A stretch of 64,000 bases of DNA from Prolixibacteraceae bacterium (GTDB taxonomy: Bacteria > Bacteroidota > Bacteroidia > Bacteroidales > Prolixibacteraceae), in contig JAFLKN010000015.1 in NCBI GenBank assembly GCA_019163175.1, positions 248,001-312,000 on the forward strand. The letters are read 5' to 3'. Each line of letters starts with the position of its first letter. Position 1 is the stretch's first letter. The notes beneath the pieces were generated by a model. It saw nothing but the letters and a program-made list of their open reading frames with translations. It did no database searches and was not told where the DNA came from. Shown one piece after another: positions 4,220 to 31,829 of this stretch. The translations under genes were made by a program, and so were the position numbers.

Positions 4220-5572
4220 CTAAAAAATCATACAAAAAACAGTCTCCTTATTCGGAACCGAGCGCACCTGCAGACTTCCACCATGCATGCGCATAATCTG
4301 TCGCGAAAGACTTAAGCCAATTCCAGACCCATTTTCGCGTGTAGTAAAAAACGGTACAAATATTTGCTCAATAATTTCTTCAGGAATTCCCGGGCCATTA
4401 TCCAGCACACAAATTTCAGGGCGATTACTGGTAGTGTAGCCAGCCCTAATGTGAATTCTTCCGGCCGGATTTTCTGAACTAGCTTCCAATGCGTTCTTCA
4501 TCAGGTTAAGCAATACCTGCGAAATCAGGTTTTCGTCAGCAAAAAGTTCGAGTCCTGGTGGATTGATGGTAACCGTAAGCTTTACTTTGTCGCTATTACT
4601 TAGTGAGGAGTACAACACTTTTATCCGGTCGACCAGATCTTCTATCCTGAACACTATTTTGTCAGGCTTTGGTAGCCGGGTTAGTTTTCTGTATGATTCA
4701 ACAAAAAGCATCAGTCCATTGCCCTGCTCTTTAATCACGTTTAGCCCACGAATGGTGGTTTGAATGGTCTTTTCATCCACTTCCTCAGGCAGCACGGCAC
4801 GATCGTCAATAGTAAAGAATTTGCTCAGGCTTTCTGAGAGGGAAGTGATCGGGGCAATCGAATTCATGATTTCGTGCATCAAAACACGGATCAACTTCAT
4901 CCACGAATCCAGCTCTTTCTCGTCCAGTTCATTGCGGATATCCTGAATCGAAAGCAATATCAGTTCGTCGCTATTGGTTTTGAAGGATGTAGCTTTTAAC
5001 GACAATTCAATCGTACCGCGTTCGGTGGTAACTGGCACCAGTTTTTGGTCAAAAGGCTTTATATTTTGCACCACCTGAAAAAGGTTCCTGTTGATGCGAT
5101 CCAGTTGATTGATATGCGTAAGCACATCAACAGACAGCATTTTTTTTGCCGCCGAATTGGCGTGAAGTACAAATCCTTTGGAATTGAAGGTCACAATTCC
5201 GGTGGCAACATGTTCAAGTAAGGTTTGAAAGTACTGTTCGCGCTGCTGATTTTCGATTTTCAATTGCTGAATCTGCTCGTTTATTTTGCTCAATCCCTGA
5301 TACAATTCGCGGATTGGCTTACCTGAAATATTGGTCGGGAACAGCAAAGTTGAATCATTATTCCGAACTGATTCAAGAAAATAGCCCATTTTCCGATTTG
5401 TTGTATTTAGGTATTTAATCAGATTTAAAACAACCAGTAACTCAAAAAAAAGACACACAATTGAAAGCAAAATAGAGTTTACTATTGTATAAGCCCATGC
5501 CGCAGCCAAAGCAAATGTGGTTACCAACAGAACCCTGAAAACAAGCTGGAAATATAGGTTTCGACTGATCAT
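4220..5572 (-). CDS. NtrY-like sensor histidine kinase
   Basis: 450 residues. Two membrane segments lie in residues ~10-56 with almost no periplasmic loop, so the sensed signal is probably membrane or cytoplasmic. A PAS-like region (residues ~110-215, ATGIVTFNSKGFVLHANSAA) is followed by the dimerisation/phosphoacceptor helix with His233 in LMHEIMNSIAPITSLSESL, and then the HATPase domain with VLDNGPGIPEE and NGSGIGLSLSRQIMRMHGG. This His-box form (HEIMNSIAPI) is typical of kinases paired with NtrC-type regulators in Bacteroidota. Its start overlaps the stop of the upstream regulator gene by 4 bases (5569-5572), so the two are translationally coupled. It presumably phosphorylates that regulator to control the efflux operon read in the opposite direction. 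Confidence 0.93.
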   Translation of the reverse strand: MISRNLYFQLVFRVLLVTTFALAAAWAYTIVNSILLSIVCLFFELLVVLNLIKYLNTTNRKMGYFLESVRNNDSTLLFPTNISGKPIRELYQGLSKINEQIQQLKIENQQREQYFQTLLEHVATGIVTFNSKGFVLHANSAAKKMLSVDVLTHINQLDRINRNLFQVVQNIKPFDQKLVPVTTERGTIELSLKATSFKTNSDELILLSIQDIRNELDEKELDSWMKLIRVLMHEIMNSIAPITSLSESLSKFFTIDDRAVLPEEVDEKTIQTTIRGLNVIKEQGNGLMLFVESYRKLTRLPKPDKIVFRIEDLVDRIKVLYSSLSNSDKVKLTVTINPPGLELFADENLISQVLLNLMKNALEASSENPAGRIHIRAGYTTSNRPEICVLDNGPGIPEEIIEQIFVPFFTTRENGSGIGLSLSRQIMRMHGGSLQVRSVPNKETVFCMIF

Positions 5573-6933
5573 TGTCCGAATTTTTTAATCTTGTTGTAGA
5601 GTGTTTGCCGGGTAACGCCAAGCTGATCTGCAGCTGCGCTTAAATTACCATTGTTTTTTTCGATGGCCATGTTGATCATTCGCTTTTCCATTTCTTCGAG
5701 GGTCAATTCGGGCGAAACATTTTTGCCTGACTGAATAGGCCGCATAAAGAAATCCTCGGGTTTCAACACATGATTTTCGCTCAGGATAACCGCCTTTTCG
5801 ATAGTATGCTGCAACTCGCGGATGTTGCCCGGCCAGGCATATTTAAGCAACTTTTCCTGAGCCTGCTGATTGATTTTCAGGTTCGGCTTGTTGTATTTCG
5901 AGGCATATTTTTTCAGGAAGAAATCGGCCAGTACCAGCACATCGTTTTCCCTTTCGCGAAGCGGCGGAACTTCAATCTGGATGGTATTGATGCGGTAAAG
6001 AAGGTCCTCGCGAAATAAACCCTCGCGCACCATATTTTCAAGATTTTTGTTTGTGGCGCAAATCAGGCGGATGTCAACCGGAACAGTTTGATTGGAACCA
6101 ATGCGCGAAATCTGCCGGTTCTGAATAGCGGCCAGTAATTTAGCCTGAAGATGAAACGACAGGTTCCCTATTTCATCGAGGAAAAGACTGCCTTTATCGG
6201 CCACTTCAAATTTACCGGGGCGGCTTTCGCGGGCATCGGTAAAAGCGCCTTTCACATGGCCGAAAAGCTCGCTTTCGAACAAAGTTTCGGTAATTGCTCC
6301 CATGTCAACGCTCACCAAAACTTCTTCGGCCCTTTTCGAAAGACGATGAATTTCCTGAGCAATCAACTCTTTACCTGTACCGTTCTCGCCGGTAATCAGC
6401 ACATTGGCATCGGTTTTGGCTACTTTGCGAACCAAGTTCAGCACATTCATCAATTGTGGCGACGAACCCACAATGAACTTTTGCTCACGGTTGATCTCGC
6501 TTTTCAATCCTTTTTCTTTCTCTTTCAGCTGGCTCACTTCTTTTTTTGAAAGATTCAGTTGGAGAGCCGACTTCAGGGTGGCCAGCAACTTGGCATTGTC
6601 CCAAGGCTTTAGCACAAAGTCAGTAGCCCCGGTTTTTAGGGCTTTTACGGTCAGCTCAACATCGCCATAAGCCGTAATCATCACCACCGAAATCTCCGGA
6701 TTGCTTTCTTTGATGCGGCTCAGCCAATAAATACCTTCATTTCCGGTATTTATTCCGGCATTAAAATTCATGTCGAGAATAACGAGGTTGTATTCCCTTT
6801 TACGCAGCTCGGTGGGAATCAGGTTGGGGTCAGAAAGAGTTGTGACCGTTTGGAATTCCGGAGAAAGGAGGATCTCCAGTGCACTTAAAATGCTTTTATT
6901 GTCATCAACAATCAGCAGGTTTCCTTTGGCCAT
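5569..6933 (-). CDS. NtrC-family sigma54-dependent response regulator
   Basis: 454 residues in the classic three-part order. The receiver domain (1-120) has acidic DD at 10-11, phosphoacceptor Asp54 in VILDMNF and Lys109. The AAA+ domain has Walker A GENGTGKE (~182-189), the sigma54-contacting loop reading GAFTDA (229-234) instead of canonical GAFTGA, and Walker B SLFLDEIG. The Fis-type helix-turn-helix is at 422-454 (NLSAAADQLGVTRQTLYNKI). It should activate transcription by sigma54 RNA polymerase when phosphorylated. It is encoded with its kinase and diverges from the TolC gene, before which a sigma54 promoter is visible, so that operon is the likely target. The gene is intact. Confidence 0.95.
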   Translation of the reverse strand: MAKGNLLIVDDNKSILSALEILLSPEFQTVTTLSDPNLIPTELRKREYNLVILDMNFNAGINTGNEGIYWLSRIKESNPEISVVMITAYGDVELTVKALKTGATDFVLKPWDNAKLLATLKSALQLNLSKKEVSQLKEKEKGLKSEINREQKFIVGSSPQLMNVLNLVRKVAKTDANVLITGENGTGKELIAQEIHRLSKRAEEVLVSVDMGAITETLFESELFGHVKGAFTDARESRPGKFEVADKGSLFLDEIGNLSFHLQAKLLAAIQNRQISRIGSNQTVPVDIRLICATNKNLENMVREGLFREDLLYRINTIQIEVPPLRERENDVLVLADFFLKKYASKYNKPNLKINQQAQEKLLKYAWPGNIRELQHTIEKAVILSENHVLKPEDFFMRPIQSGKNVSPELTLEEMEKRMINMAIEKNNGNLSAAADQLGVTRQTLYNKIKKFGQ

Positions 6934-19814: not shown

Positions 19815-19822
19815 AAAATGTC

Positions 19823-19917
19823 TGAACTATGATTAGATTGATTGAATGATTAACATGATTTTGAGAATAGAAAAAATCAAAGTCTTCATAAAATCAAGCG
19901 AATCAAAGTTTCGACAA
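19823..19917. repeat. MITE-like element R4 (family b, 95 bp)
   Basis: Near-identical in length and sequence to R3; differences are concentrated in the left arm (TGAACTATGATTAGAT against TGAACTTTGATTCATT). The shared core is GATTGAATGATTAACATGAT then TTTGAGAATAG. It begins 8 bp after the permease 3 stop codon and ends 34 bp before the permease 4 start. Confidence 0.78.
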
Positions 19918-19951
19918 ATGGATTGAAGAAATTAAAATATCAGTAAAACAT

Positions 19952-22426
19952 ATGAACTCAACCAATTGGAAAATATCGGCTCGAAATCTGCTCAGGCACA
20001 AGTCGCTAACCTCGATTAATATTTTAGGACTGGCTGTTGGGCTGGCATCCTCAATCCTCATTTTAATGCATGTAGCATACGAATACAGCTACGACAAAAA
20101 CTGGGAAAAAGCCGGCAACATTTGTCGGATCAGCTATACCCGCTATCAGAATGGCGAGCTTAGTTTTAAAAGTGCACGCACCCTTGGTGGGATGGCCCCG
20201 GTTTTAAAAGAAAAAATACCGGAAGTGATTGGCAGCACCCAGCTTTTTAAAGATGTGGTGACGGTTTACAACGAAGATAACCAGATTGCGGACATTCAGA
20301 TGTATGTAGTCGACTCGACCTTTCAAAGTGTATTTAAACTCGACTACATCAACAAGAAAACCGATAATCCGCTTATTCCGCTCTATTCCTCGGTTATTTC
20401 CGAGTCAGCGGCACTTAGCTTGTTTGGAACCACTGATGCCGTTGGAAAATGGTTCAAAGTATGCCAGGGATGGCGTTTTTGTGTGACCGGTGTTTACAAA
20501 GATTTGCCATCGAATTCACATATCTCGTTCGATATGTTGCTAAGTCTGCAAACCTACTACCACTATTATCAAAACTGGGACGATGCAACAGGGTCGGAAA
20601 TCATCAAAAACCCGAAAGCTTACATTCAAAACAAAAAAGTAACAAGCTGGGAGTATGGGTATGCGGGATGGTATAGTTACCTTTTGCTTCAACCCGGAAC
20701 CGATCCGAAACAAATAGAATCGAAAATCGCTCAAATCGGGGTTGACTATACCCAAAAGATCACGCAAAACAATGGTAAAGCAGAGTTCCAGCTTCAGCCA
20801 ATAAAAAGTATCCACCTTAATTCGCATCTTGATAATGAAATGAAAGCCAATGGCGACCGCAATTCAGTCATGGCGATGGTATTTATTGCTCTGGTCATTC
20901 TGGTTATTGCCTGGATCAATTTTGTCAATCTAACGCTAATCCGCGCAGTGGAACATGCCAAATCAATCGGAATCCGGAAATCGGCAGGTGCCACGAAAAA
21001 ACATTTGGTTTTCCAATTCCTGACCGAGGCATTAATTACCAATCTGATTAGTGTTTTAATCGCTTTGGGTTTGGTGTTTCTACTGCAAAACTGGTTCTCG
21101 TCACTCAGCAATCTGCCCATCATCGCCTCAATCGGATGGAATTACACTTTGATTCTGGCAGCGATCATTTTGGCTGGAGTCTTGATTTCAGGACTTTATC
21201 CGGCGTTGTATCTTTCATCATTCAAAGCCATTGATTTATTTAAAGGAATTCACTCGACAGTGACCAATTCACTCGATTTGCGGAAGTTTCTGGTGGTCGC
21301 GCAGTTTGCGGCATCCATATTCCTGATTGCCGGTGTGATCACAGTTTTCAAGCAAATCAGTTACATGAAATCGCGCGACCTGGGAGTGAATATCGAACGG
21401 ACACTGGTTACTTTCTCGCCTCCAACGCAGATCGGACGGCCACAACGGATGAGCAAACTGAATGCCTATAAAGAACAGATCAGGCAAACTTCGGGTGTAG
21501 AGTCGGTAGCAACCTCGTCGATTCTTCCGGGAAAAGAAATTCTTTGGAAGAAACAGGATGTCCGGAAGGTGACCGATCAGCCCAATTCGACCAATGTTTA
21601 TGCCTACGCCTATGTCGATTATGATTTTATCCCGACTTTTAACCTGAAACTGGCTGCAGGACAAGGCTTTTCACGTGAAGAAAATGAAAGCAACAATACG
21701 ATGATTGTGAACGAATCGGCAATGAAACAATTGGGTTATTCCGATCCTTCATCCACCATAAACTCATTCGTAAAGGTTGGAGATAAAGATTTTAAAATCA
21801 TTGGTGTCCTGAAGGATTATCACCACGAATCGCTCCGGAAGGAAATTAAACCGATTATTTTCTTTTATGGATACCGCTGGATGTCAGACATTGGGTACTA
21901 TTCCATCAAAGTAAATTCAGCCAATCTGGATCAGACCATTGCCCAGATCGAAAAAATCTGGAAGCAAACCTATCCTGAAGATCATTTTCAGTACTTTTTC
22001 CTCGACGATGAATTTAATACGCAATATAAAGCCGATCAGGCATTTGGACGTGTATTTACCTTGTTTACCTTTCTGGCAATTTTCATTGCTGCTATCGGAC
22101 TTTTTGGCCTAGCTGTCTATTCTGCCAATCAACGAACCAAGGAAATCGGGGTTCGAAAAGTAAACGGTGCCAAAGATTCTGAAATACTGATCATGCTGAA
22201 TCGTAATTTTGTCAAATGGGTTGTCTTGGCCTTTGTAATTGCTACACCTCTGGCCTGGTTTATCCTGACCAAATGGCTCGAAAACTTTGCCTACCAAACT
22301 AATTTGAGCTGGTGGATTTTTGCACTGGCAGGATTAATCTCAGTTACTATTGCTATTATTACTGTGACCTGGCAAAGCTGGAAAGCCGCCACAAAAAACC
22401 CCGTGGAAGCGCTGAGGTATGAGTAG
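19952..22426 (+). CDS. FtsX/MacB-type ABC transporter permease 4
   Basis: 824 residues, the longest of the five. TM1 at ~20-45 (SINILGLAVGLASSILILMH), large periplasmic domain, TM cluster around 310-425 (VMAMVFIALVILVIAWINFV), mid TM (FLVVAQFAASIFLIAGVITV), second periplasmic domain, and a terminal TM trio. FtsX motifs AKSIGIRKSAGATKKHLVFQ and RTKEIGVRKVNGAKDSEILI; tail WKAATKNPVEALRYE. The last 57 bases of the gene (22369-22425) are duplicated at 22898-22954 on the far side of the DUF559 cassette. The gene itself is intact. Confidence 0.92.
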   Translation: MNSTNWKISARNLLRHKSLTSINILGLAVGLASSILILMHVAYEYSYDKNWEKAGNICRISYTRYQNGELSFKSARTLGGMAPVLKEKIPEVIGSTQLFKDVVTVYNEDNQIADIQMYVVDSTFQSVFKLDYINKKTDNPLIPLYSSVISESAALSLFGTTDAVGKWFKVCQGWRFCVTGVYKDLPSNSHISFDMLLSLQTYYHYYQNWDDATGSEIIKNPKAYIQNKKVTSWEYGYAGWYSYLLLQPGTDPKQIESKIAQIGVDYTQKITQNNGKAEFQLQPIKSIHLNSHLDNEMKANGDRNSVMAMVFIALVILVIAWINFVNLTLIRAVEHAKSIGIRKSAGATKKHLVFQFLTEALITNLISVLIALGLVFLLQNWFSSLSNLPIIASIGWNYTLILAAIILAGVLISGLYPALYLSSFKAIDLFKGIHSTVTNSLDLRKFLVVAQFAASIFLIAGVITVFKQISYMKSRDLGVNIERTLVTFSPPTQIGRPQRMSKLNAYKEQIRQTSGVESVATSSILPGKEILWKKQDVRKVTDQPNSTNVYAYAYVDYDFIPTFNLKLAAGQGFSREENESNNTMIVNESAMKQLGYSDPSSTINSFVKVGDKDFKIIGVLKDYHHESLRKEIKPIIFFYGYRWMSDIGYYSIKVNSANLDQTIAQIEKIWKQTYPEDHFQYFFLDDEFNTQYKADQAFGRVFTLFTFLAIFIAAIGLFGLAVYSANQRTKEIGVRKVNGAKDSEILIMLNRNFVKWVVLAFVIATPLAWFILTKWLENFAYQTNLSWWIFALAGLISVTIAIITVTWQSWKAATKNPVEALRYE

Positions 22427-22430
22427 TGTC

Positions 22431-22890
22431 CACCCCAAACCCCTGAAGGGGCTTAAAGTAGTGCAAACATGAGCATAAATGATAAAATTTCAATGTTTTA
22501 CAATGCCAAACCAATCATTTTTGAGAGAGCAAAAGCGATGCGTGAGAATATGACACAAGCAGAAAATGCTGTTTGGGAGGTATTGAAATCAAAAAATATG
22601 TTGGGATTAAGATTTAAACCTCAACATCCTATTGACATTTTTATTGCCGATTTTTATTGTCATCCGTTAAAACTGGTCATTGAAATAGATGGAGGAATTC
22701 ATAAATCCAAAGAACAGAAAGAATATGACATTGGCCGAGAAGCTGAACTAGAAAAATGGGGAATAAAAGTAATTCGGTTTACTAACGAGGAAGTAGAAAA
22801 AAGCATTGAACATGTTAAGAAAGAAATCGAACAAGAATGTGCAAGGCATAGATCGGAGCTACAAAGTCCCCTTCAGGGGATTTAGGGGTG
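22431..22890. mobile_element. Putative DUF559 cassette bracketed by family-a inverted ends
   Basis: The left end at 22431-22454 (CACCCCAAACCCCTGA then AGGGGCTT) and the right end at 22864-22890 (AAGTCCCCTTCAGGGG then ATTTAGGGGTG) are inverted copies apart from three single-base insertions. One gene, DUF559, lies between and uses the right end for its last codons and stop. The cassette is itself flanked by a 57-bp direct duplication of the preceding permease's 3' end (22369-22425 and 22898-22954, one mismatch). The boundaries are clear by eye; mobility is inference. Confidence 0.65.
22469..22885 (+). CDS. DUF559 protein, Vsr-like PD-(D/E)XK endonuclease fold
   Basis: 138 residues with the family signatures RAKAMRENMTQAENAVWEVL, LGLRFKPQHPIDIFIADFYC and KLVIEIDGGIHKSK, followed by GIKVIRFTNEEV. 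The Asp in ADFY and the Glu-x-Asp of IEIDGG fit a restriction-endonuclease-like active site related to very-short-patch repair (Vsr) nucleases. DUF559 proteins are common as lone genes in Bacteroidota and have no settled role. Here the final residues SPLQGI and the TAG stop are encoded by the right inverted end of the cassette. It is an intruder in an efflux operon; no cognate methylase is nearby, so a restriction-modification role is unlikely. Confidence 0.88.
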   Translation: MSINDKISMFYNAKPIIFERAKAMRENMTQAENAVWEVLKSKNMLGLRFKPQHPIDIFIADFYCHPLKLVIEIDGGIHKSKEQKEYDIGREAELEKWGIKVIRFTNEEVEKSIEHVKKEIEQECARHRSELQSPLQGI

Positions 22891-22897
22891 CAATATA

Positions 22898-22954
22898 CTG
22901 GCAAAGCTGGAAAGCAGCCACAAAAAACCCCGTGGAAGCGCTGAGGTATGAGTA
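22898..22954 (+). repeat. 57-bp direct duplication of the permease 4 3' end
   Basis: This stretch repeats 22369-22425 with a single mismatch (C at 22387, A at 22916) and still encodes GKAGKAATKNPVEALRYE-like codons ending in a stop. Paralogous permease ends elsewhere in the locus are clearly more diverged at the DNA level, so it is either a recent local duplication linked to cassette insertion or the remnant of a deleted, recently duplicated permease. Confidence 0.85.
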
Positions 22955-22960
22955 AGAAAG

Positions 22961-23010
22961 AAGCCTCATCTAAAAAGGCTGCACTTCAGGGAGATTTAGA
23001 GGGACTTTAT
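22961..23010. repeat. Decayed family-a end before permease 5
   Basis: GCACTTCAGGGAGATTTAG then AGGGACTTT at about 22981-23008 resembles the cassette's right end (CTTCAGGGGATTTAGGGG) with substitutions, and AAGCCTCATCTAAAAAGGCT just before it forms a short stem. It suggests that an earlier element already stood at this junction before the DUF559 cassette. Confidence 0.5.
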
Positions 23011-23045
23011 TGCTAGCTTTATAACCAACGACTAAACCGAACACC

Positions 23046-25445
23046 ATGTTGAGAATTATCTTCCTTTCTGCCTTCAGAAGTTTACTGAAATACAAGCACA
23101 TGAGCATCATTAATCTCGTGGGCTTAATAGCCGGATTAACTTCGTTTTTATTTGCTGTCCATTATATTTTATTCGAGTTTTCGTACGATTCGTTTTTCAA
23201 CAAAACGGAGAATGTTTACCGTGTAAACCTGGAGGTTGAAAAAGAAGGACAGACCATTTTTCACGGGGCCAAAACACCGCGGGCATTGTTTTTTGCCATT
23301 AAACGCGAAATCCCCGAAATTGAAGCCAACGGATTGGCCTATTTCGAGAAATGCCTGGTGAACTTTCAGGACCGAACCATTGCTAATCAGGATGTGCTAT
23401 GGGTTTCCGAAGATTTTGAAAAAGTTTTTCCTCTTGACATGATTGCGGGAATTGCTGATTACACCCGACCGCGGTCTGGGGTTATTTCTGAAACCTGCGC
23501 CAAAGCGCTCTACGGAAATGAAAACCCAATCGGGAAAATTATGCGGGTTAACGAGGGAATGCCAATCGAAATAACCGGTATTTTCAAGGATTTGCCACCC
23601 AACACGCATTTGCGGGCGCAGTATTTTATAGCAGTAAAAACCTGGGTCGAAATGGGTGCCATTAATGCAGAAGGCGACTGGCGATGGAATGGCTGGTGGA
23701 ATTACATCAGACTCAAAGACGGCAGCTCTCCGGAAGTAACAACCTCAAAAATCAACAGTCTCATTCAGTCGTACATGGGGTTTCTGGCAGATGACCAAAG
23801 GAGCGCACGATTTTCCTTACAGCCTTTAAAAACTATGCACTTTATTCAGGGTATAGAGGGCGAAATGGGCGCTATTACCAATTATTCGTCGCTCATCAAC
23901 CTAATCGTTATTGCGGTAATTACCCTTTTTATTGCGTGGATCAATTACGTGAATCTTTCGGTGGCACACGCGCAGTCGCGGTCAATCCAGATTCGCACCC
24001 GCAAATTAATTGGCGCGTCCGATTTTCATCTCTGGCACCAGTCGCTGGCCGAAAGTTCTATCCTGAACATTGCAGCATTAATCGCTTCTTTTCTGCTCTA
24101 CCTGATTTTGCTGAATACGGTGGCCTCGGTTTTTAACATTCCGGTCAATCAGGCACAAATACCTCTTGGGTATGTCATTCTCATTTCGGTGCTCACTGTT
24201 TTTGGAGGAATCTTGTTTTCGGGCATGTATCACGGCATTGAACTGGCACGGATTAAGATTTTGCCTGATCAGAAACAAGCCAACGGAGGAAAGGTAAAGA
24301 GTGGGCTGGTCGTCTTACAAATGGCGCTTTCCATCATTTTCCTGATCAGCACGCTGACCGTCTACAAACAAATTTCGTTCATGAAAAACAAAGATTTGGG
24401 TGTGGCGCTGAATAATGTGGTGGTTTGTACCGGACCGGCCTCATTAAATTCTGATGGCAACAAACGTCAACGATTTGAAGGATTCCGCAGCGATCTTCAA
24501 AATCAGGCAGGTTTTGAGGGAGTGACTTTTAACCAGTTTGTTCCCGGGCAGGAACCGGCCTTCGGATTTAGAGAGTTTAACAACCCAACCAAAGGGAAAT
24601 CACCAGACAAACAAATTTTTGAGAATCATGCAGGTAGCGGATTCATCAAAACATACGGACTTAAATTATTGGCAGGAAACGATTTCAGTGAAAATCAGTC
24701 ACAAAACCTTAACCGTATAATCCTGAATGAATCGAGTATGAAACTGCTTGGATTTGATAATCCGGAGGATGCTGTTGGCAAAGAGATTTTCAGAAAAGGT
24801 AACAACTCTGCAGCTTTAAAAATTGAGGGCGTGGTGGCCGATTTCCATCACGAAGGATTGCATAAAGCCATTTACCCCATCATCTGGAATAACCAGTTCC
24901 CCAATGAATTCGGTTATTTTTCTATCCGGGTAAACACGCAAAATGTACAGGAAACCTTAAGCCACCTGCAAACCACATGGACGCGCCATTACCCGAAAGA
25001 CAACTTCGATTATGTGTTTGCCGACGAACAGTTCAACCGGCAATACGAATCCGACAGCCGTTTCAGCAAATTGTATGTCTGGCTAACGTTGCTTTCCATC
25101 GGAATTGCCACCATTGGTTTGTATGGACTGATTCTTTTCTATCTCGAAAAGCGTAAAAAAGAAATCAGTTTAAGAAAAGTGAACGGAGCCAACATTGCCC
25201 AGGTCATTCATTTAATCAACCTGACTTTCATCAAATGGGTGGCTGTAGCTTTTGTGATTGCCATTCCATTGGCGTACTATGCCATGTATCGCTGGCTCGA
25301 AAATTTTGCCTACAAAACCGAACTAAGTTGGTGGATTTTTGTCCTGGCAGGTTTGCTCACCCTGGGAATTGCTCTGCTTACAGTTAGCTGGCAAAGTTTT
25401 AAAGCGGCTTCGAAGAATCCAATGGAAGTGCTGAGGTACGAGTAG
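23046..25445 (+). CDS. FtsX/MacB-type ABC transporter permease 5
   Basis: 799 residues, last gene of the efflux operon. TM1 at ~20-45 (SIINLVGLIAGLTSFLFAVH), periplasmic domain, TM cluster near 285-400 (NLIVIAVITLFIAWINYVNL), mid TM (SGLVVLQMALSIIFLISTLT), second periplasmic domain and terminal TM trio. The first FtsX signature is atypical (RSIQIRTRKLIGASDFHLWH, lacking EIGI), whereas the second, KKEISLRKVNGANIAQVIHL, is close to standard. Tail is FKAASKNPMEVLRYE. The operon ends at the hairpin 25481-25513. Confidence 0.92.
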   Translation: MLRIIFLSAFRSLLKYKHMSIINLVGLIAGLTSFLFAVHYILFEFSYDSFFNKTENVYRVNLEVEKEGQTIFHGAKTPRALFFAIKREIPEIEANGLAYFEKCLVNFQDRTIANQDVLWVSEDFEKVFPLDMIAGIADYTRPRSGVISETCAKALYGNENPIGKIMRVNEGMPIEITGIFKDLPPNTHLRAQYFIAVKTWVEMGAINAEGDWRWNGWWNYIRLKDGSSPEVTTSKINSLIQSYMGFLADDQRSARFSLQPLKTMHFIQGIEGEMGAITNYSSLINLIVIAVITLFIAWINYVNLSVAHAQSRSIQIRTRKLIGASDFHLWHQSLAESSILNIAALIASFLLYLILLNTVASVFNIPVNQAQIPLGYVILISVLTVFGGILFSGMYHGIELARIKILPDQKQANGGKVKSGLVVLQMALSIIFLISTLTVYKQISFMKNKDLGVALNNVVVCTGPASLNSDGNKRQRFEGFRSDLQNQAGFEGVTFNQFVPGQEPAFGFREFNNPTKGKSPDKQIFENHAGSGFIKTYGLKLLAGNDFSENQSQNLNRIILNESSMKLLGFDNPEDAVGKEIFRKGNNSAALKIEGVVADFHHEGLHKAIYPIIWNNQFPNEFGYFSIRVNTQNVQETLSHLQTTWTRHYPKDNFDYVFADEQFNRQYESDSRFSKLYVWLTLLSIGIATIGLYGLILFYLEKRKKEISLRKVNGANIAQVIHLINLTFIKWVAVAFVIAIPLAYYAMYRWLENFAYKTELSWWIFVLAGLLTLGIALLTVSWQSFKAASKNPMEVLRYE

Positions 25446-25543: not shown

Positions 25544-27802
25544 TTAGTTTTTCATGATGTTGGTAAAATCATTCTGAATCTTCATCAGGTTAATCGAATA
25601 GATCATGATATTTCGGGCTTCGCTAAGGATATTCAGCAGCAGCATGCTATTCTTGGTTCCAACATCATTTTTCTTTATCGATTTGATCAGATTTTTACGA
25701 GCCTCACGAACTAAACCTATGATTCGAAGCTGTTCTGCATTAATCTCTTCCAGCTTGACTTCATTGTTTGAGTCCAGGGCATCAATCATCTTTTTGGTAA
25801 ATACCGAAAACTCTTCAGCAATTTGAGTCAGTTCAACTGCCTGAGTAGATAAAATGGGCTTGTGGTTATTGTCAACGTGATTAAAAACCGGTTCGGCCAT
25901 AAAGTTTATACAATGAGCCAGTTCTTTTAGATAATCAAGTGTTAAAACGTAATAATGACTGGCTTCAACCGAATCGGCCGGAAGAGAATTGATTGTTTGA
26001 TGGATTTTGCTCTTTTTATTCGCCAGTTTTTGCTCCAGTTCTACAGCGGTCTGCAGCTGCTTCTTCAATTCCTTCCGATTTTCCTTGATCAGTCCTTTTA
26101 CGGTATCGCTGAAAATACCACTTATCGCATTCAGGGTTTTTGTAATTCCCTTGTTGTTTGTTTCAAACATTGATATCACCGTTGGGATCACTTCAACATC
26201 ATCAGATTTAGACTGAAAATTCTCTTCGCGCTTTTTGTGAACCAAGTGAGTTCTGTAAAAAGCAAGAATGGCAAAAGCAAGAATGGCAATTACGCCGAAA
26301 ATCTGAGCCCAACCCATAAACATGGAAAGAAAAAATGCGACCGAGAATGCAGCAAGACCAGTAATAAACCAACCGCCAATAACAGTAAATACGCCGGTTA
26401 TGCGGTAAACAGCACTGTCTCGACCCCAGGCGCCATCGACCAGCGAAGTACTCATGGCCACCATGAAGGTAACATAAGTGGTTGAAAGCGGTAATTTGTA
26501 TGAAGTCCCAACAGCAATTAGTATAGAGGCAACCATCATATTTACCGAAGCCCGCACCATATCAAACATTGGTGGGTTCAGATCGTTCTTGCTTCTTTCA
26601 TCCATTTCAGTGGTATCAAACCGCTTACTTATTTTATCGATGATTGGCTGTGGCAACACGTGACTGAAGAATGTCCCGACATTTACAACTCGCCTGACTA
26701 AGACTCTTGAAAAGGCTGACGAACCAAAACGTTCAGTTCCCTCATCTTGTCGGCTAAGTTTCAATTCTGTTTCAGCAACAGTTTGTGCTTTTTTAGATGT
26801 CCAGAGTGTAATAACCATAACAATTCCAGAGCCAATCAAAAAATAAATTGGTGTTTTAATTTCGCCAAGTAAACCTCCCATTAATAAATCGTTACTGCCA
26901 TTTGCAACATATGTTTTGTACGACTCAAACCCTGCCAATGGAACTCCAATAAAGTTTACCAGATCGTTTCCGGCAAAGGCCATTGCCAAGGCAAAAGTGC
27001 CTGTCAATACAACTATTTTAAGCGGATTGGTCTTGAAAACCCAACTTATTATTTGTAAAAGAAAAGTCCAAAACATGAAACTCATCCCAACAATTAAAAG
27101 AGTATTATCCTGGATTGTTTTATAGGCTTCCTTGGTCATGAAAGAGGCATCTTTCAACCCCTTAATCAGTATAAAATAGGTAATAGCAGATATCGCCAAT
27201 CCACCCCACAGGGCTCCATAATATTTAATTGTTTTTTCAGTATTAAAACTAAACAGCAAACGGCTGATCCATTGAATTACTACACCAAAAACAAAGGAAA
27301 GTACCACTGATAGTAATATACTTGATATAATAGTGAGGGCTTTGGATGAGTTTATAAAATCACTGATCTCGGCAATTTTTTGAGTCCCATCAACTAGAAT
27401 AGTTGCACCATCGCCAACTTTGAGAAAAGCCATTCCGATGGCAGCACCCAACAATCCAAAAACCATGGAAACCGTTGTAGATGTAGGTAATCCAAAAGTG
27501 TTAAAGAAATCGAGCAACAGAACATCAGTAAACATAACCGCCATAAAGATGATGATGATTTCGGTAAACAAAAAGTACTGTGGATGGAAAAGTCCTTTGC
27601 GTGCAACTTCCATCATTCCGTTCGAAAGAAGTGCACCAGCTAAAATACCGGCACTAGCTACAATCATAATGATCCGACGTTTCGCTACATTAGAACCAAT
27701 TGCCGAATTCAAAAAGTTAATAGCATCATTGGCAACCCCGACCATCAGGTCGGAAATAGCCAAAAGGAAAAGTACTACTAAAAAGAAAATGTAAATACTC
27801 AT
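25544..27802 (-). CDS. PiT-family inorganic phosphate transporter with C-terminal PhoU-like domain
   Basis: 752 residues. The PHO4 permease signature appears twice, as SDLMVGVANDAINFLNSAIG near the N-terminus and AMAFAGNDLVNFIGVPLAGF in the middle, within about twelve membrane helices (residues 1 to ~530). Residues ~560-752 are soluble, charged and helical (KTLNAISGIFSDTVKGLIKE; EARNIMIYSINLMKIQNDFT), matching DUF47/PhoU-like domains that are usually separate proteins. The fusion suggests built-in regulation of Na+ or H+ driven phosphate entry. It is the only gene in its unit, with its own terminator and a 334-bp upstream gap. Confidence 0.93.
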   Translation of the reverse strand: MSIYIFFLVVLFLLAISDLMVGVANDAINFLNSAIGSNVAKRRIIMIVASAGILAGALLSNGMMEVARKGLFHPQYFLFTEIIIIFMAVMFTDVLLLDFFNTFGLPTSTTVSMVFGLLGAAIGMAFLKVGDGATILVDGTQKIAEISDFINSSKALTIISSILLSVVLSFVFGVVIQWISRLLFSFNTEKTIKYYGALWGGLAISAITYFILIKGLKDASFMTKEAYKTIQDNTLLIVGMSFMFWTFLLQIISWVFKTNPLKIVVLTGTFALAMAFAGNDLVNFIGVPLAGFESYKTYVANGSNDLLMGGLLGEIKTPIYFLIGSGIVMVITLWTSKKAQTVAETELKLSRQDEGTERFGSSAFSRVLVRRVVNVGTFFSHVLPQPIIDKISKRFDTTEMDERSKNDLNPPMFDMVRASVNMMVASILIAVGTSYKLPLSTTYVTFMVAMSTSLVDGAWGRDSAVYRITGVFTVIGGWFITGLAAFSVAFFLSMFMGWAQIFGVIAILAFAILAFYRTHLVHKKREENFQSKSDDVEVIPTVISMFETNNKGITKTLNAISGIFSDTVKGLIKENRKELKKQLQTAVELEQKLANKKSKIHQTINSLPADSVEASHYYVLTLDYLKELAHCINFMAEPVFNHVDNNHKPILSTQAVELTQIAEEFSVFTKKMIDALDSNNEVKLEEINAEQLRIIGLVREARKNLIKSIKKNDVGTKNSMLLLNILSEARNIMIYSINLMKIQNDFTNIMKN

Positions 27803-28136
27803 GGGAAAGTTTTTAGTTCGCAGATTTTGATTTTATACAGAAAGCTATGATGAAAAAGCAGTAAATATTGAATTGGGGGGATTTCATATTCTATATTTTT
27901 TTAATAGTTAGATACCTGCTTGATAGGTAGGCAGTGAACTTGCCAATTGGCTATACTTTGAGTAAGTTGTACATTTGGCTTGCATAATAGTATCTTAACC
28001 AACTATTAATCTGTTTGTAATTTCTATCGACAAAAATAATTATTTTATCCTTGACAAGGTAGTAAATAAATTGCTTAACCAAATTATAACATTGATTTTT
28101 TTAATCCCTTTTAATTGTCTTTTGTCTGAAAAACAA
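27803..28136. other. 334-bp intergenic region upstream of the phosphate transporter
   Basis: AT-rich and without a credible reading frame. It must hold the minus-strand promoter of the phosphate transporter gene; CAAAAATA at 28032-28039 reads TATTTTTG on minus, a match to the Bacteroidota -7 box, but the leader would be about 220 nt. A small stem TACCT/AGGTA lies at 27913-27929. No repeat family of this window is recognised here. Confidence 0.4.
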
Positions 28137-30512
28137 TTACTTAAGATTCTCTTCAAACAGCTTGTAAATGCGTTTGTATTCGTCTGCCCAGCTTGTAGGT
28201 TCAGTAAAACTGTGCCGCTCAACAGGATATACCGCCAGTTCCCAGTTTTCCTTGCCCAGTTCGATCAGCCTTTGCGACAAGCGAACAATATCCTGAAAAT
28301 GTACATTGTCGTCAATCATTCCATGACACATTAGCAAAGCGCCTTTTAATCCGGCGGCATAATAAATCGGTGAACTTCGCACAAAAGCCAGACTATCTTC
28401 AACCGGAGTATTCAGTATATTTGAAGTATAACCGTGATTGTAATGGGCCCAGTCAGTTACCGAACGCAATGCGGCTCCGGCTTTAAAAACATCAGGAGTT
28501 TTAAACATGGCCATCAGGGTAATAAAACCACCATACGAACCGCCATAAATGCCAATTCGCGCAGGCGAAATCCCATATTTTTCTACCAGAAAACGCGCAC
28601 CATCAACATGGTCGGTTAAATCTTTTCCTCCCATGTTGCGATAAATTCCCGTTCTCCAGTCGCGGCCATAGCCCGAACTTCCACGGTAATCAATATCAAG
28701 AACCGTATAACCATTGTCGACTAAAAAGTTATGAAACTGGTATTCCCTTTGGTACTGACTCCACCATTTGTGTGCATTCTGTAAATAGCCGGCACCATGC
28801 ACAAAAACAACAGCTGGCCCGTTTTTCTCCGGACTAACGGGGCGGTACAAACGGGCATAAACGGTTTGTCCATCTTCGGCCTGATAACTTACAAATTCAG
28901 GTTTTCGCCAGGGATAAGCCTCAAATTCCTTAGTTAACGATTGAGTAATTTTTTGAGGTGCAGCACCAGGTTTATTGGCTTGAAGGTACAATTCCCAGGG
29001 CTGGTTGGCAGAAGAAAACCGAATAGCCAGTTGTTTTTCGTCAGGCGAAAGTTGAACTTCGTTATTTCCTTCCATTGATGTAATTTGCACTGGTTCGCCA
29101 CCCCAAACAGGTATCCGGTAAAAATGGCGAACTCCGGGATGCACCTTGTTGGCTGTGAAATAAAACCACTTTTTATCCTTCGAAATAAACGGATCGTAAA
29201 CTTCAAACTGTCCTTGGGTTAACTGCTTCTTTTCGCCTGAAATTGTATTCAGCGTATACAAGTGCGAATATCCCGACTCTTCAGACTGGAACCAAATGGA
29301 TTGATTATCGGGCATCCAGCCAACCAGGCCGGGAGACATCGGATAACTTTCTATTCCGGGACCTCCAACCCAGGCTTCGTCGTGCTGACGATCGAGTAAT
29401 TTGGGTTCTCCGCTTGCCAAATCGAGCTGCATAATCCAGCGGTCTTTGCTGTTGTGCGAACGAGCAACCACAATGGCTTGGTCCTTTGTTGGATTCCAGA
29501 ACGGGCCAAGTACATTCACTTTTCGGTCATCGGACTTTTCCAGCTTCGAATGTGGGTAATCATTTTTATAAGCTGGTAAATCTTTGATTCCGGGAATATT
29601 CGAAGTTTCAACTTTATACGATTTATCCGTTTCCAGATTTAAAATTCTCAAGCTCGCCGCTGTCTGCGGTCCACCAACTTTCCGTCGGCTGGGTTCTGTT
29701 TCCGAATAGCCTGATTCGCTTACAAAATTCAACAATTCAGTTTCTTTTTCAGCTGATGCATTTTCGATGACGGAGTAAATAACGTATTTACCCGATGGAC
29801 TTAGCGAAATACTGCGCAGTCGACCCGTGCCCAGATAAACCGGCTCCATCTGTTTTTCTTTGTCTAAGTTTGCCCGATACTCCTGTGTTTTCCGAAGTTC
29901 GTCCTTCGACTTCAGCACATCGAACAGTTGCATTTGCTGCGCCTCAAGCCATTCATCCTGCGCATTGCCCTTTTTCTCTTTCTTCTTTTCGCCCGAAACA
30001 AAATTGGTGAGTTGCTTAATCATTCCTGACTCCAGTTTCAGCAGGTATAGGTTTTGGTTAAAAACAAAGCTGATGCTTTGCTGATCGGCCAGAAAGTGAA
30101 CCTGGGATGTCTGTCCAAGCCAGTCGGTAAGCTGTTTCTCGGTGCCATTTTTCAGGTCAAGAAGAAAAATATTTCCATTCCGGACAAATACTTTGGCCGA
30201 ATAATCGAGCCGATACTCACCTTCATGAATCGAAAGTTTTGATTTTTCTTCCGGCAATACTTTCGATATATTTCGTGTAAGAAGTGAATACGAATGAACC
30301 GACGAAAGTGTATCTTTTTCAGGGTTCCAACTAAAAAAAATCGTTTTGCTATCCTCGCTCCACGACAAATTTTCGGGGGCTGTTCCTATCCACTTTTCAG
30401 GATTCTGCATGATTTTATCGATGGTCAATGCACTTTGGTTGGACTTCTGAATCTGGCCAAAGGCTGAAACTGAAAAACAAATCAAAAGAAAAATGGAAAG
30501 AGTTTTTTTCAT
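28137..30512 (-). CDS. S9-family prolyl oligopeptidase-like peptidase (DPP IV type)
   Basis: Start set at 30512 (MKKTLSIFLLICFSVSAFGQ, a Sec signal); a longer frame from 30590 would overlap the neighbouring gene. The 791-residue protein has an N-terminal beta-propeller (repeats such as SISLSPSGKYVIYSVIEN and QVQLSPDE-type blades) and a C-terminal alpha/beta hydrolase with nucleophile Ser659 in GIYGGSYGGF, Asp in HGMIDDNVHFQD and His in PVERHSFTEP. It should cleave short peptides after Pro or Ala in the periplasm. It follows the aldo/keto reductase by 19 bp and is the last gene of a three-gene unit. Confidence 0.94.
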   Translation of the reverse strand: MKKTLSIFLLICFSVSAFGQIQKSNQSALTIDKIMQNPEKWIGTAPENLSWSEDSKTIFFSWNPEKDTLSSVHSYSLLTRNISKVLPEEKSKLSIHEGEYRLDYSAKVFVRNGNIFLLDLKNGTEKQLTDWLGQTSQVHFLADQQSISFVFNQNLYLLKLESGMIKQLTNFVSGEKKKEKKGNAQDEWLEAQQMQLFDVLKSKDELRKTQEYRANLDKEKQMEPVYLGTGRLRSISLSPSGKYVIYSVIENASAEKETELLNFVSESGYSETEPSRRKVGGPQTAASLRILNLETDKSYKVETSNIPGIKDLPAYKNDYPHSKLEKSDDRKVNVLGPFWNPTKDQAIVVARSHNSKDRWIMQLDLASGEPKLLDRQHDEAWVGGPGIESYPMSPGLVGWMPDNQSIWFQSEESGYSHLYTLNTISGEKKQLTQGQFEVYDPFISKDKKWFYFTANKVHPGVRHFYRIPVWGGEPVQITSMEGNNEVQLSPDEKQLAIRFSSANQPWELYLQANKPGAAPQKITQSLTKEFEAYPWRKPEFVSYQAEDGQTVYARLYRPVSPEKNGPAVVFVHGAGYLQNAHKWWSQYQREYQFHNFLVDNGYTVLDIDYRGSSGYGRDWRTGIYRNMGGKDLTDHVDGARFLVEKYGISPARIGIYGGSYGGFITLMAMFKTPDVFKAGAALRSVTDWAHYNHGYTSNILNTPVEDSLAFVRSSPIYYAAGLKGALLMCHGMIDDNVHFQDIVRLSQRLIELGKENWELAVYPVERHSFTEPTSWADEYKRIYKLFEENLK

Positions 30513-30531
30513 GTAGGATTGGAATAAGTGT

Positions 30532-31362
30532 CTAAAAATTAAACTGGTCAGGATCTTCACCCATCCGGCTAAACCGATCGAGGCCATCAATTCGGTCCAT
30601 GTCTGCCGGGCTCAATTCGAAATCGAAAATATCAGCGTTGTGGATAATCCGTTCCGGTGTAACCGATTTGGGAATAGTAACCACCCCTTTCTGAATATCC
30701 CACCGAAGTACGATTTGTACTGGTGACTTTTGGTATTTTTCGGAAAGGTGCTGCAAAAGAGGAAGGTCATTCACTCGCCCTTTCATAATTGGTCGCCAGG
30801 CTTCAGGCTGAATTTGATTCGCCTTGCAGAATTCCAAAAGCTCAGGCTGAACCAGTTCAGGGTGAAATTCAAACTGATCTACCATCGGCTTAATGGTAGC
30901 CTTTGACATCAACGATTTTAAATGTTTTACAAGAAAGTTGGAAACTCCGATAGCGCGAACCTGCCCTTTCTGATAAAGTTCCTCCATCGCTTTCCATGTG
31001 TCGAGAGTCAACTCGTTTTGTGGCCAGTGAATCAGGTACAAGTCGAGGTAATCGGTTTGCAATTTCTCCAGACTTTGCTCAAATGCCCTAATTGTGGAAT
31101 GATAGCCCTGATCGCTGTTCCATACTTTGGATGTGATAAAAATATCTTCGCGCCGAATTCCGCTTTCGGCAATGACTTTGCCTACACAATGTTCGTTTTG
31201 ATAATATGTTGCGGTATCAATGCTTCGGTAGCCTGCCTGAAGTGCGCATCTAAGCGCGGTTAAAACCTCCGAACCAGCACCTGATCTGTGAACGCCAAGC
31301 CCAAACCAAGGCATTTCAACGCCATTGTAAAGTTTTGTTGTTGATGTTAGTGTGGCTGTCAT
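30532..31362 (-). CDS. Aldo/keto reductase
   Basis: 276 residues, TIM-barrel oxidoreductase of the AKR superfamily. Visible motifs: YRSIDTATYYQNEHCVG with the catalytic Asp and Tyr, FITSKVWNSDQ with the catalytic Lys, DLYLIHWPQNE with the active-site His, and the NADPH-binding GVVTIPKSVTPERI near the C-terminus. No signal peptide, so cytoplasmic. It reduces aldehydes or ketones with NADPH; the real substrate is not predictable. It lies between a CoA-binding protein gene (26 bp upstream) and the S9 peptidase gene, apparently co-transcribed without a functional theme. Confidence 0.94.
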   Translation of the reverse strand: MTATLTSTTKLYNGVEMPWFGLGVHRSGAGSEVLTALRCALQAGYRSIDTATYYQNEHCVGKVIAESGIRREDIFITSKVWNSDQGYHSTIRAFEQSLEKLQTDYLDLYLIHWPQNELTLDTWKAMEELYQKGQVRAIGVSNFLVKHLKSLMSKATIKPMVDQFEFHPELVQPELLEFCKANQIQPEAWRPIMKGRVNDLPLLQHLSEKYQKSPVQIVLRWDIQKGVVTIPKSVTPERIIHNADIFDFELSPADMDRIDGLDRFSRMGEDPDQFNF

Positions 31363-31388
31363 TAATGCATTTCAGATAGAATGAAAAA

Positions 31389-31829
31389 TTACAGTTTCCC
31401 GAAAATACCAACAATGGTGCGGTGAAACTTATGCACCGACTTAACAGGTGGAGCATACATCATGATGCACTTTTTGGTAACCACCGGCAATTGCAACTGA
31501 TCAATCGTTTGCTGAACTTCTGCCGACCACGCGCCTTGTTGCAACCAAATGTTTTTCAGGCCAATTTGAGCTGCTTCTTCCAATACCGGCGAAACATTTT
31601 TAGGCGGTATAGAAATCCAGACAGCATCCACTTTCCCGCTTAAACTTTGAAGATCAGGATAGCAGGTCATTCCATCAATTTCTGTGGCTTCGGGATGAAC
31701 AGGGAAAATTTCGTAGCCCTTTTCTTTCAATTCTTTGCTGGCCATGTTTCCAAACTTTTTCCCAGAACGAGACATACCCACAACGGCAATCCGTTTGGAC
31801 GATACAAATTGGTCGATTAATGGATTCAT
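31389..31829 (-). CDS. CoA-binding domain protein (YccU-like)
   Basis: 146 residues made of a single Rossmann-like CoA_binding_2 domain: KRIAVVGMSRSGKKFGNMAS near the N-terminus, KGYEIFPVHPEATEIDGM, VDAVWISIPPKNVSPVLEEA and NIWLQQGAWSAEVQQTI. The family resembles the CoA-binding part of succinyl-CoA ligase; its cellular role is not established. Cytoplasmic. First gene of a minus-strand unit with the aldo/keto reductase and the S9 peptidase. Confidence 0.9.
   Translation of the reverse strand: MNPLIDQFVSSKRIAVVGMSRSGKKFGNMASKELKEKGYEIFPVHPEATEIDGMTCYPDLQSLSGKVDAVWISIPPKNVSPVLEEAAQIGLKNIWLQQGAWSAEVQQTIDQLQLPVVTKKCIMMYAPPVKSVHKFHRTIVGIFGKL

Follow-up and report, generated by a model that had tools for sequence, protein, structure and literature searches.

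A DUF559 nuclease cassette with palindromic ends between two copies of its host gene's 3' end in Bacteroidota: a possible homing-type mobile element

Introduction

Among the described systems that come closest to the locus reported here are the mobile open reading frames (ORFs) of fungal mitochondria, in which an endonuclease ORF at atp6, atp9, cox2 or nad3 of Glomus is accompanied by a copy of the gene's C-terminus (PMC3630166); an Allomyces atp6 mobile ORF that duplicates the C-terminus is cited there as an earlier case (Paquin 1994, as cited in PMC3630166). The DUF559 domain has been placed in two nuclease contexts: a DUF559 gene in an intein setting has already been assigned in print to the EDxHD homing endonuclease family (PMC9403480), and Caulobacter VsrA, which carries DUF559, has been proposed as a Vsr-like mismatch-repair enzyme (PMC12907096). 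In this work we analyzed a lone DUF559 gene that lies between facing palindromes and two copies of a permease gene's 3' end, within 64,000 nucleotides of a Prolixibacteraceae bacterium (GenBank assembly GCA_019163175.1, contig JAFLKN010000015.1, positions 248,001 to 312,000 of the forward strand); this whole stretch is referred to as the window, and its positions are counted from its first letter. Gene ends are also known as integration sites of genomic islands, for instance at tRNA genes, where a copy of the gene end carried by the island restores the gene and a spare copy is left distally.

Results

The DUF559 cassette of the window

Permease 4, an FtsX/MacB-type gene on the forward strand (19952–22426; PF12704, MacB_PCD, and PF02687, FtsX), is followed on the same strand by an ORF of 138 amino acids (22469–22885) that matches the DUF559 profile PF04480 well above threshold (E = 6e-32; 110.2 bits against a gathering score of 20.6). 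The left palindromic end, REP-L (CACCCCAAACCCCTGAAGGGGCTTAA, 22431–22456, + strand), in which CACCCCAAACCCCTGAAGGGG occupies 22431–22451, begins four bases past the end of permease 4 and resembles the ends found at other cassettes. The right one, REP-R (AAAGTCCCCTTCAGGGGATTTAGGGGTG, 22863–22890, + strand), in which CCCCTTCAGGGGATTTAGGGGTG occupies 22868–22890, overlaps the end of the ORF and encodes its last codons (..SPLQGI). The inverted arms at 22424–22451 and 22868–22895 are 28 nt long, 75% complementary and separated by 416 nt. Outside the palindromes, the final 57 bp of permease 4 without the last base of the stop codon (22369–22425, + strand, ..NPVEALRYE) recur at 22898–22954 (+ strand) with 56 of 57 positions identical and a start-to-start distance of 529, ahead of permease 5, which starts at 23046. 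This anatomy, a lone DUF559 gene between facing palindromes with a 57-bp duplication of the permease 4 tail outside them, had been described in a first-pass annotation of the same DNA and is confirmed here. The excess of similarity is nevertheless smaller than the bare 56/57 suggests, because the right tail copy is in any case similar to the tails of the window's other permeases (mean 76%, best 88% over 60 bp, against 93% for its own left copy by the same measure).

The DUF559 gene is a stand-alone ORF located neither inside an intron nor inside an intein, and no Rfam family was found at E ≤ 1 in positions 22000–23300. No intrinsic terminator was called at either end of the cassette, and PADLOC returned weak matches alone, to parts of DpdF and mREase_II, so that the palindromes as terminators and the ORF as a defence gene were both rejected. 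A candidate degenerate tail at about 19920–19950 of the window was also discarded as not significant, its score being reached by 85 of 500 shuffles.

The AlphaFold model of the DUF559 protein has a predicted local distance difference test (pLDDT) score of 84, and the best fold matches of this predicted structure in the PDB are 3hrl (3e-6) followed by the catalytic domain of the homing endonuclease I-Bth0305I (3r3p; Foldseek 4.0e-4, template modelling score by target 0.80), whereas the modelled match to Vsr is far weaker (E = 0.58). Profile searches agree with the fold, matching both 3hrl and 3r3p (E = 5.9e-5 for the latter). The Pfam matches consist of DUF559, with MTES_1575 and DUF2726 below their cut-offs, and include no HUH or DDE domain. 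Judged by the ratio of nonsynonymous to synonymous substitution rates (dN/dS), the nuclease is under purifying selection: values range from 0.065 to 0.134, with a median of 0.106, over the 16 of 91 pairs with dS below 2.5, two of which repeat another through duplicate loci and all of which have high dS (0.65–2.43).

Recurrence of the gene-tail copy

The comparison was based on 100 DUF559 loci, of which 76 came from the best 80 of at least 559 confirmed relatives, after exclusion of four near contig ends, and 24 from another relative search, from which six genes with long or end-cut frames and the second DUF559 copy of the window's own genome had been excluded; six loci were duplicated under two names, leaving 94 distinct DUF559 loci. 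Where loci or genomes must be told apart, they are given by our L and G numbers. Thirteen of the 94 lie within 240 bp past the stop codon of a permease gene, and in 11 of these, among them loci of Maribellus and Carboxylicivirga, a permease tail follows the right palindrome; the same test found no such tail at L028 and L066. As in the fungal systems, the 3' end of the gene therefore stands on both sides of the endonuclease ORF at 11 of the 13 permease-end loci, and also at a radA locus described below. The two tails are 522–532 bp apart in seven of the 11 loci. Among the tails compared, the distal copy is closest to the gene tail of its own locus in four cases, namely the window (56/57), G012 (57/57), Maribellus sp. 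CM-23 (56/59) and L077 (56/57, tails 1 and 3); elsewhere it is decayed or resembles the tail of another paralogue (L015, L019, L044). Read by eye, the junction breakpoint is much alike across several genera, falling about 6–10 nt after GGGGT and near CTGGC.

A pattern search for the right palindrome followed by the start of a tail gave 12 matches in 10 of 140 genomes of the family, against one for the reversed control; eight of the loci were read, and four of them (L184, L187, L191, L195) do not hold permease tails, so that 8 of the 12 matches are permease tails. The gene-tail test, positive in 17 of 95 cases before duplicate loci were removed, was positive for 15 of 64 upstream genes of distinct loci (10 permeases, radA, L029, L053, L086 and L118) and for none of 24 convergent genes. 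In the control, 148 of 4032 cross pairs scored as high, and in 121 of these both members were permeases. The last ~290 bp are conserved among permease paralogues.

In Mangrovibacterium marinum (L046, identical to L020), a DUF559 array is found behind a gene that is RadA-like by its domain matches and that we take to be radA. Within positions 4600–6200 of this locus, the last 53 bp of the gene, stop codon included, are repeated without a mismatch (53/53) behind a deleted cassette, and an additional, slightly altered copy of the tail lies nearer the gene; no second radA was seen in the stretch read around the locus. The gene-end duplication noted in the first-pass annotation is accordingly not confined to the window, since it recurs behind other permeases and behind radA.

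Tails and elements also form arrays, in the order tail-element-tail-element-tail at L017/L180 and L077, and element-tail-element-tail or tail-element-tail-element at L186 and L189, while in G032 a single degenerate right tail is common to two elements that differ in their left parts and lie behind different permeases. Two cassettes of G053 are 95.6% alike over about 650 bp, and their likeness extends 114 bp past the left palindrome and 79 bp past the right one; therefore, the copied unit can exceed the palindrome-bounded cassette. Two further loci deserve mention in their own right: at L154 (13277–13984) palindromes together with a degenerate permease tail enclose a methyltransferase gene, which could be read as other cargo using the same site, and at L190 a DUF559 gene lies between degenerate permease-like tails behind an SMP-30-like gene rather than a permease (the gene and the tails were recognized by eye).

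We consider these arrangements best explained by a free-standing, homing-type mobile element of gene ends, with the gene-tail copies as its arms, an explanation to which we give an even chance of being correct. Besides the recurrent tail copies and their largely uniform spacing, this reading draws on the inverted repeats that go with the gene, the differing cassette positions in related genomes, the shared right tail of G032, the oversized unit of G053, the match to I-Bth0305I in fold and profile, the fungal parallel, and the rarity of tail copies at the GxxExxY genes described below. The nuclease would cut a permease gene at its conserved 3' end, and the break would be repaired from a different permease end, so that the cassette and the tails on either side of it are copied in, the tails acting as homology arms. 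The host gene would thereby keep a complete end, and a spare tail would remain behind the cassette.

The palindromes as a dispersed family

With at most one mismatch, CCCCTTCAGGGG occurs six times in the window against 0.18 expected, and CCCCTTNAGGGG occurs 11 times in the window's own genome, mostly as facing pairs, with no occurrence in the reversed control. One short facing pair of these palindromes without an ORF, at 1774–1845 of the window (+ strand), is a probable non-autonomous relative. A longer form, AAATCCCCTNAAGGGGACTT, was present in 33 of 101 genomes (the window's own and related ones; reversed control zero in all). Where a genome has a close DUF559 relative at E ≤ 1e-30, the palindrome was found in 20 of 24 cases, against 13 of the 77 other genomes (Fisher P = 5e-9); because a cassette brings its own palindrome copy, the count for two or more copies is also given, 17 of 24 against 7 of 77. 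Exceptions exist in both directions, with 21 and 9 palindrome copies in G034 and G097, which have no DUF559 match, and none in G030, G031, G086 and G087, which have a close DUF559 gene.

The first-pass annotation had proposed checking whether the palindromic ends are conserved at other DUF559 genes, and they are often present: among the named loci with enough flank, inverted repeats with a score of at least 18 flank 39 of 74 DUF559 genes, against 5 of 304 control ORFs from these loci, and inverted or direct repeats flank 54 of 74 against 6 of 304. Similarity between DUF559 proteins tracks similarity between their flanks with a rho of 0.18–0.21, a value that still includes genome relatedness and that no more than 1 of 500 permutations attained. 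Other repeats also accompany such genes. The second DUF559 gene of the window's genome (L002/L260, G000:C6:107000-113000) is flanked by two direct repeats (105 bp, 98%), each a copy of a long palindrome of another kind, and tandem 264-bp units, ~98–99% identical, occur near two DUF559 genes at L253 (G048:C1:1202000-1211000).

This association would suit a transposition resembling that of repetitive extragenic palindromes (REPs) and their associated tyrosine transposases (RAYTs), in which DUF559 would act on the palindromic ends, move both the cassette and the short pairs, and leave a long target duplication on landing at a gene end; the four loci with nearly identical tails of 57–59 bp, the co-occurrence of palindromes and nuclease across genomes and, with the relatedness it includes, the parallel between protein and flank similarity all speak for it. 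The short pairs, however, argue otherwise. Palindrome pairs read in G000 (the window's own genome), G012, G018 and G019 were classed by inner gap: nearly all those with gaps of 12, 20 and 31/32 bp lie within elements like miniature inverted-repeat transposable elements (MITEs) that bear terminal repeats of their own, gaps of 42–45 bp correspond to an 86-bp palindrome pair, 416 bp to the DUF559 cassette and 169 bp to an internally deleted cassette in G012. The 24 short pairs with gaps of 30–45 bp have no long flanking repeat (the highest repeat score is 13.0 in the 110 bp searched on each side), and on these grounds we rejected the idea that the palindromes generally come with a long target duplication. 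Of 54 pairs found, 52 were tested for flanking repeats against controls: 20 reached or exceeded the 95th percentile, by eye mostly gap-12 pairs in a MITE-like element of ~190 bp with internal repeats, and two, including the G012 cassette, scored above all of their controls. Given also the copied units that exceed the palindromes and the lack of HUH or DDE domains among the Pfam matches, we judge this explanation improbable, and the earlier suggestion that the palindromes drive the movement of the cassette is not supported. The ~190-bp MITE-like element has ends GAGGCTGTATCAAAAGT and a palindrome pair in its middle (e.g. L129, L141, L146, L162), and two further MITE types also carry the pair.

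Cassette positions in related genomes

In the stretch compared between the two close species G122 and G109, 19 reciprocal best hits have protein identities of 89–99.6%; the cassette and two poor pairs come in addition. Behind permease M (98%), G109 has one DUF559 cassette and G122 a different one (59% protein identity). In G122, the twin of the G109 cassette (407/420 nt) sits behind another permease, and the counterpart of that site in G109 has no cassette. At this site (G122 array 27091–29580, G109 29139–31647) the permease bodies are 51–80% identical per 100 bp, whereas the ends are conserved, with 92–94% at the start and 92% in the last 100 bp. The 3' end and downstream flank of the orphan tail in G122 are common with the tail of the differing G109 gene. 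The G122 body is 76% alike to that of G115, which has a cassette, and 78–80% alike to those of G135, G136, G138 and G114, which have none, and 13 of the 17 best permease matches to the G122 gene, read by eye, have a single tail and no such palindrome.

In the window's genus, the orthologous permease has the cassette in G012 and G018 and lacks it in G019, whose own cassette lies one permease further on. The permeases of these three genomes are mosaic. Between G018 and G019, identity is 83–98% over positions 1400–2200 of the gene and 77–83% over the 230 bp that directly precede the cassette, which is the pattern that co-conversion would leave, in a gene that is mosaic elsewhere too. For the window itself, no permease 4 orthologue that could serve as an empty site was found at E ≤ 1e-200 in 30 relatives, and two full-length permease-5 orthologues (87%, G011 and G015) have neither a cassette nor a second tail upstream, in a flank that differs from that of the window. 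The search for sites without the cassette therefore gave a divided result, with related species lacking it behind matching permeases and no clean empty site for the window.

The first-pass annotation had left a choice between an insertion that duplicates the gene end and recombination after the loss of a paralogue. In a lost-paralogue reading, the right tail would be what is left of a deleted permease, with the cassette merely in between. The pair of cassettes behind different permeases in close species fits the former, and the G122/G109 orphan tail comes near the latter, since at this site its 3' end and flank are shared with the tail of a permease whose body differs; L180 (5998), where by eye a tail seems to be fused to the N-terminal part of a permease, points the same way. 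A lost paralogue would nonetheless hardly produce much the same breakpoint in several genera, an exact copy of the radA tail or arrays with three tails, and we consider it very improbable.

Weighing the homing-type reading

Several results weigh against a homing-type element. Most loci (81 of 94) are not behind permeases, and the tail spacing in the remaining 4 of the 11 loci is 570–726 bp. In 51 loci not behind permeases an upstream gene could be tested, and radA provides the sole convincing tail copy, the four other positives (L029, L053, L086, L118) reaching the score through palindromic or A-rich sequence, and no sequence common to permease and radA tails was identified. Orphan tails without a DUF559 cassette exist (L175 at 1286, L213, L180 at 5998), and one orphan tail follows a GxxExxY gene. 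The G109 permease body is an outlier (61–66%, against 76–80% among the others), and for this reason G109 is probably a recombinant rather than an untouched or clean ancestral empty site. The tails of G012 are identical even though G018 has the same permease site (permease 84% at the amino acid level, cassette 307/414 nt), and because the permease is shared this identity may stem from later conversion rather than recent insertion. Finally, exchange of the permease bodies takes place in these arrays, and such recombination could by itself relocate a cassette.

That last point leads to a serious rival, in which the cassette arose behind a permease and was shuffled by homologous recombination or gene conversion within tandem permease arrays with like 3' ends, the nuclease taking no part in the movement. 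Its function might then be a cellular one, such as the Vsr-like mismatch repair suggested for the DUF559 protein VsrA of Caulobacter (PMC12907096). This rival carries weight because recombination among permease bodies and tails occurs in any case, as in the body replaced between conserved ends in G122/G109 and the mosaic permeases of G012, G018 and G019, because paralogues are alike over their last ~290 bp, and because orphan tails occur without the DUF559 cassette.

GxxExxY nuclease genes (PF13366) offer a contrast. In 26 of 30 loci (L261–L280 and others) they could be tested, using the gene's own tail plus 350 bp, a procedure slightly unlike the DUF559 permease-end test. They often have inverted-repeat flanks and, judged by the last residues, stand at permease ends in 7 of 26 loci and behind another recurring gene end (..GRDDVYC) in 8 of 26, yet a tail copy was found at one of the seven permease-end loci; GxxExxY cassettes as a second case of the arrangement were therefore rejected. 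A GxxExxY nuclease gene also occurs in the G109 array (23880–24290), and an inverted repeat without an ORF behind the permease preceding permease 4 (window 19815–19951, score 18) resembles GxxExxY cassette ends.

The radA case, in a stretch where no other radA was seen, and the six of seven GxxExxY genes at permease ends without a tail copy speak for a role specific to the DUF559 cassette and count against passive shuffling, as do the recurring junctions and the palindromes that accompany the DUF559 gene; we regard passive shuffling as rather unlikely. On the homing-type reading, the direction of each cassette move is one that we infer.

Comparison with known systems

As a tentative generalization, on which we would place somewhat less than even confidence, such cassettes may represent bacterial homing elements that spare gene ends: a Vsr/EDxHD-type nuclease with palindromic ends would carry the 3' end of its target and invade conserved tails, such as those of permeases and radA, leaving the gene working, and derivatives without an ORF would follow it. 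If correct, this would give a testable role to many Bacteroidota DUF559 genes, explain some of the palindromic repeats in the intergenic regions of this phylum, and show a selfish nuclease living in coding sequence without harm to it. In searches of the open-access literature, no paper was seen that links DUF559 with palindromic repeats or gene-end duplication, which is no proof of absence.

The cassette differs from a classical DNA transposon in that no long target duplication was found at the short copies (24 pairs, gaps 30–45 bp). With islands integrated at gene 3' ends it shares the restored gene end and the distal spare, but the ~530-bp cassette unit has no integrase ORF. Like the REPtron and REPIN-RAYT systems (PMC3733652), it consists of a gene flanked by palindromes that are also dispersed as short pairs; unlike them, it has no HUH tyrosine transposase among its Pfam matches and no GTAG/CGTC tag visible by eye, and it has a long gene-tail duplication. 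It shares the DUF559 domain and the PD-(D/E)XK superfamily with Vsr-like repair endonucleases such as Caulobacter VsrA, which is proposed as a mismatch-repair protein (PMC12907096), whereas Vsr is a weak fold match to the cassette nuclease. The resemblance to EDxHD homing endonucleases (I-Bth0305I) lies in the predicted fold and profile similarity of the protein, and the difference in a cassette that is outside introns and inteins and has palindromic ends and a gene-tail copy.

The fungal mitochondrial mobile ORFs differ in having LAGLIDADG or GIY-YIG nucleases and residing in organelle genomes, and palindromic ends are not mentioned in the part of that report at hand, which gives the gene-joined copy as foreign and the distal copy as native (PMC3630166). 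At the G122/G109 site, the distal copy matches the neighbour species' tail at its 3' end, the permease body differing too, and in the window the two copies are 56/57 alike. Both systems have a free-standing endonuclease ORF at the 3' end of a gene with the C-terminal part on both sides, and the DUF559 cassette, if the homing-type reading is correct, would be a chromosomal bacterial counterpart, with a Vsr-like nuclease, of the fungal homing ORFs that duplicate a C-terminus.

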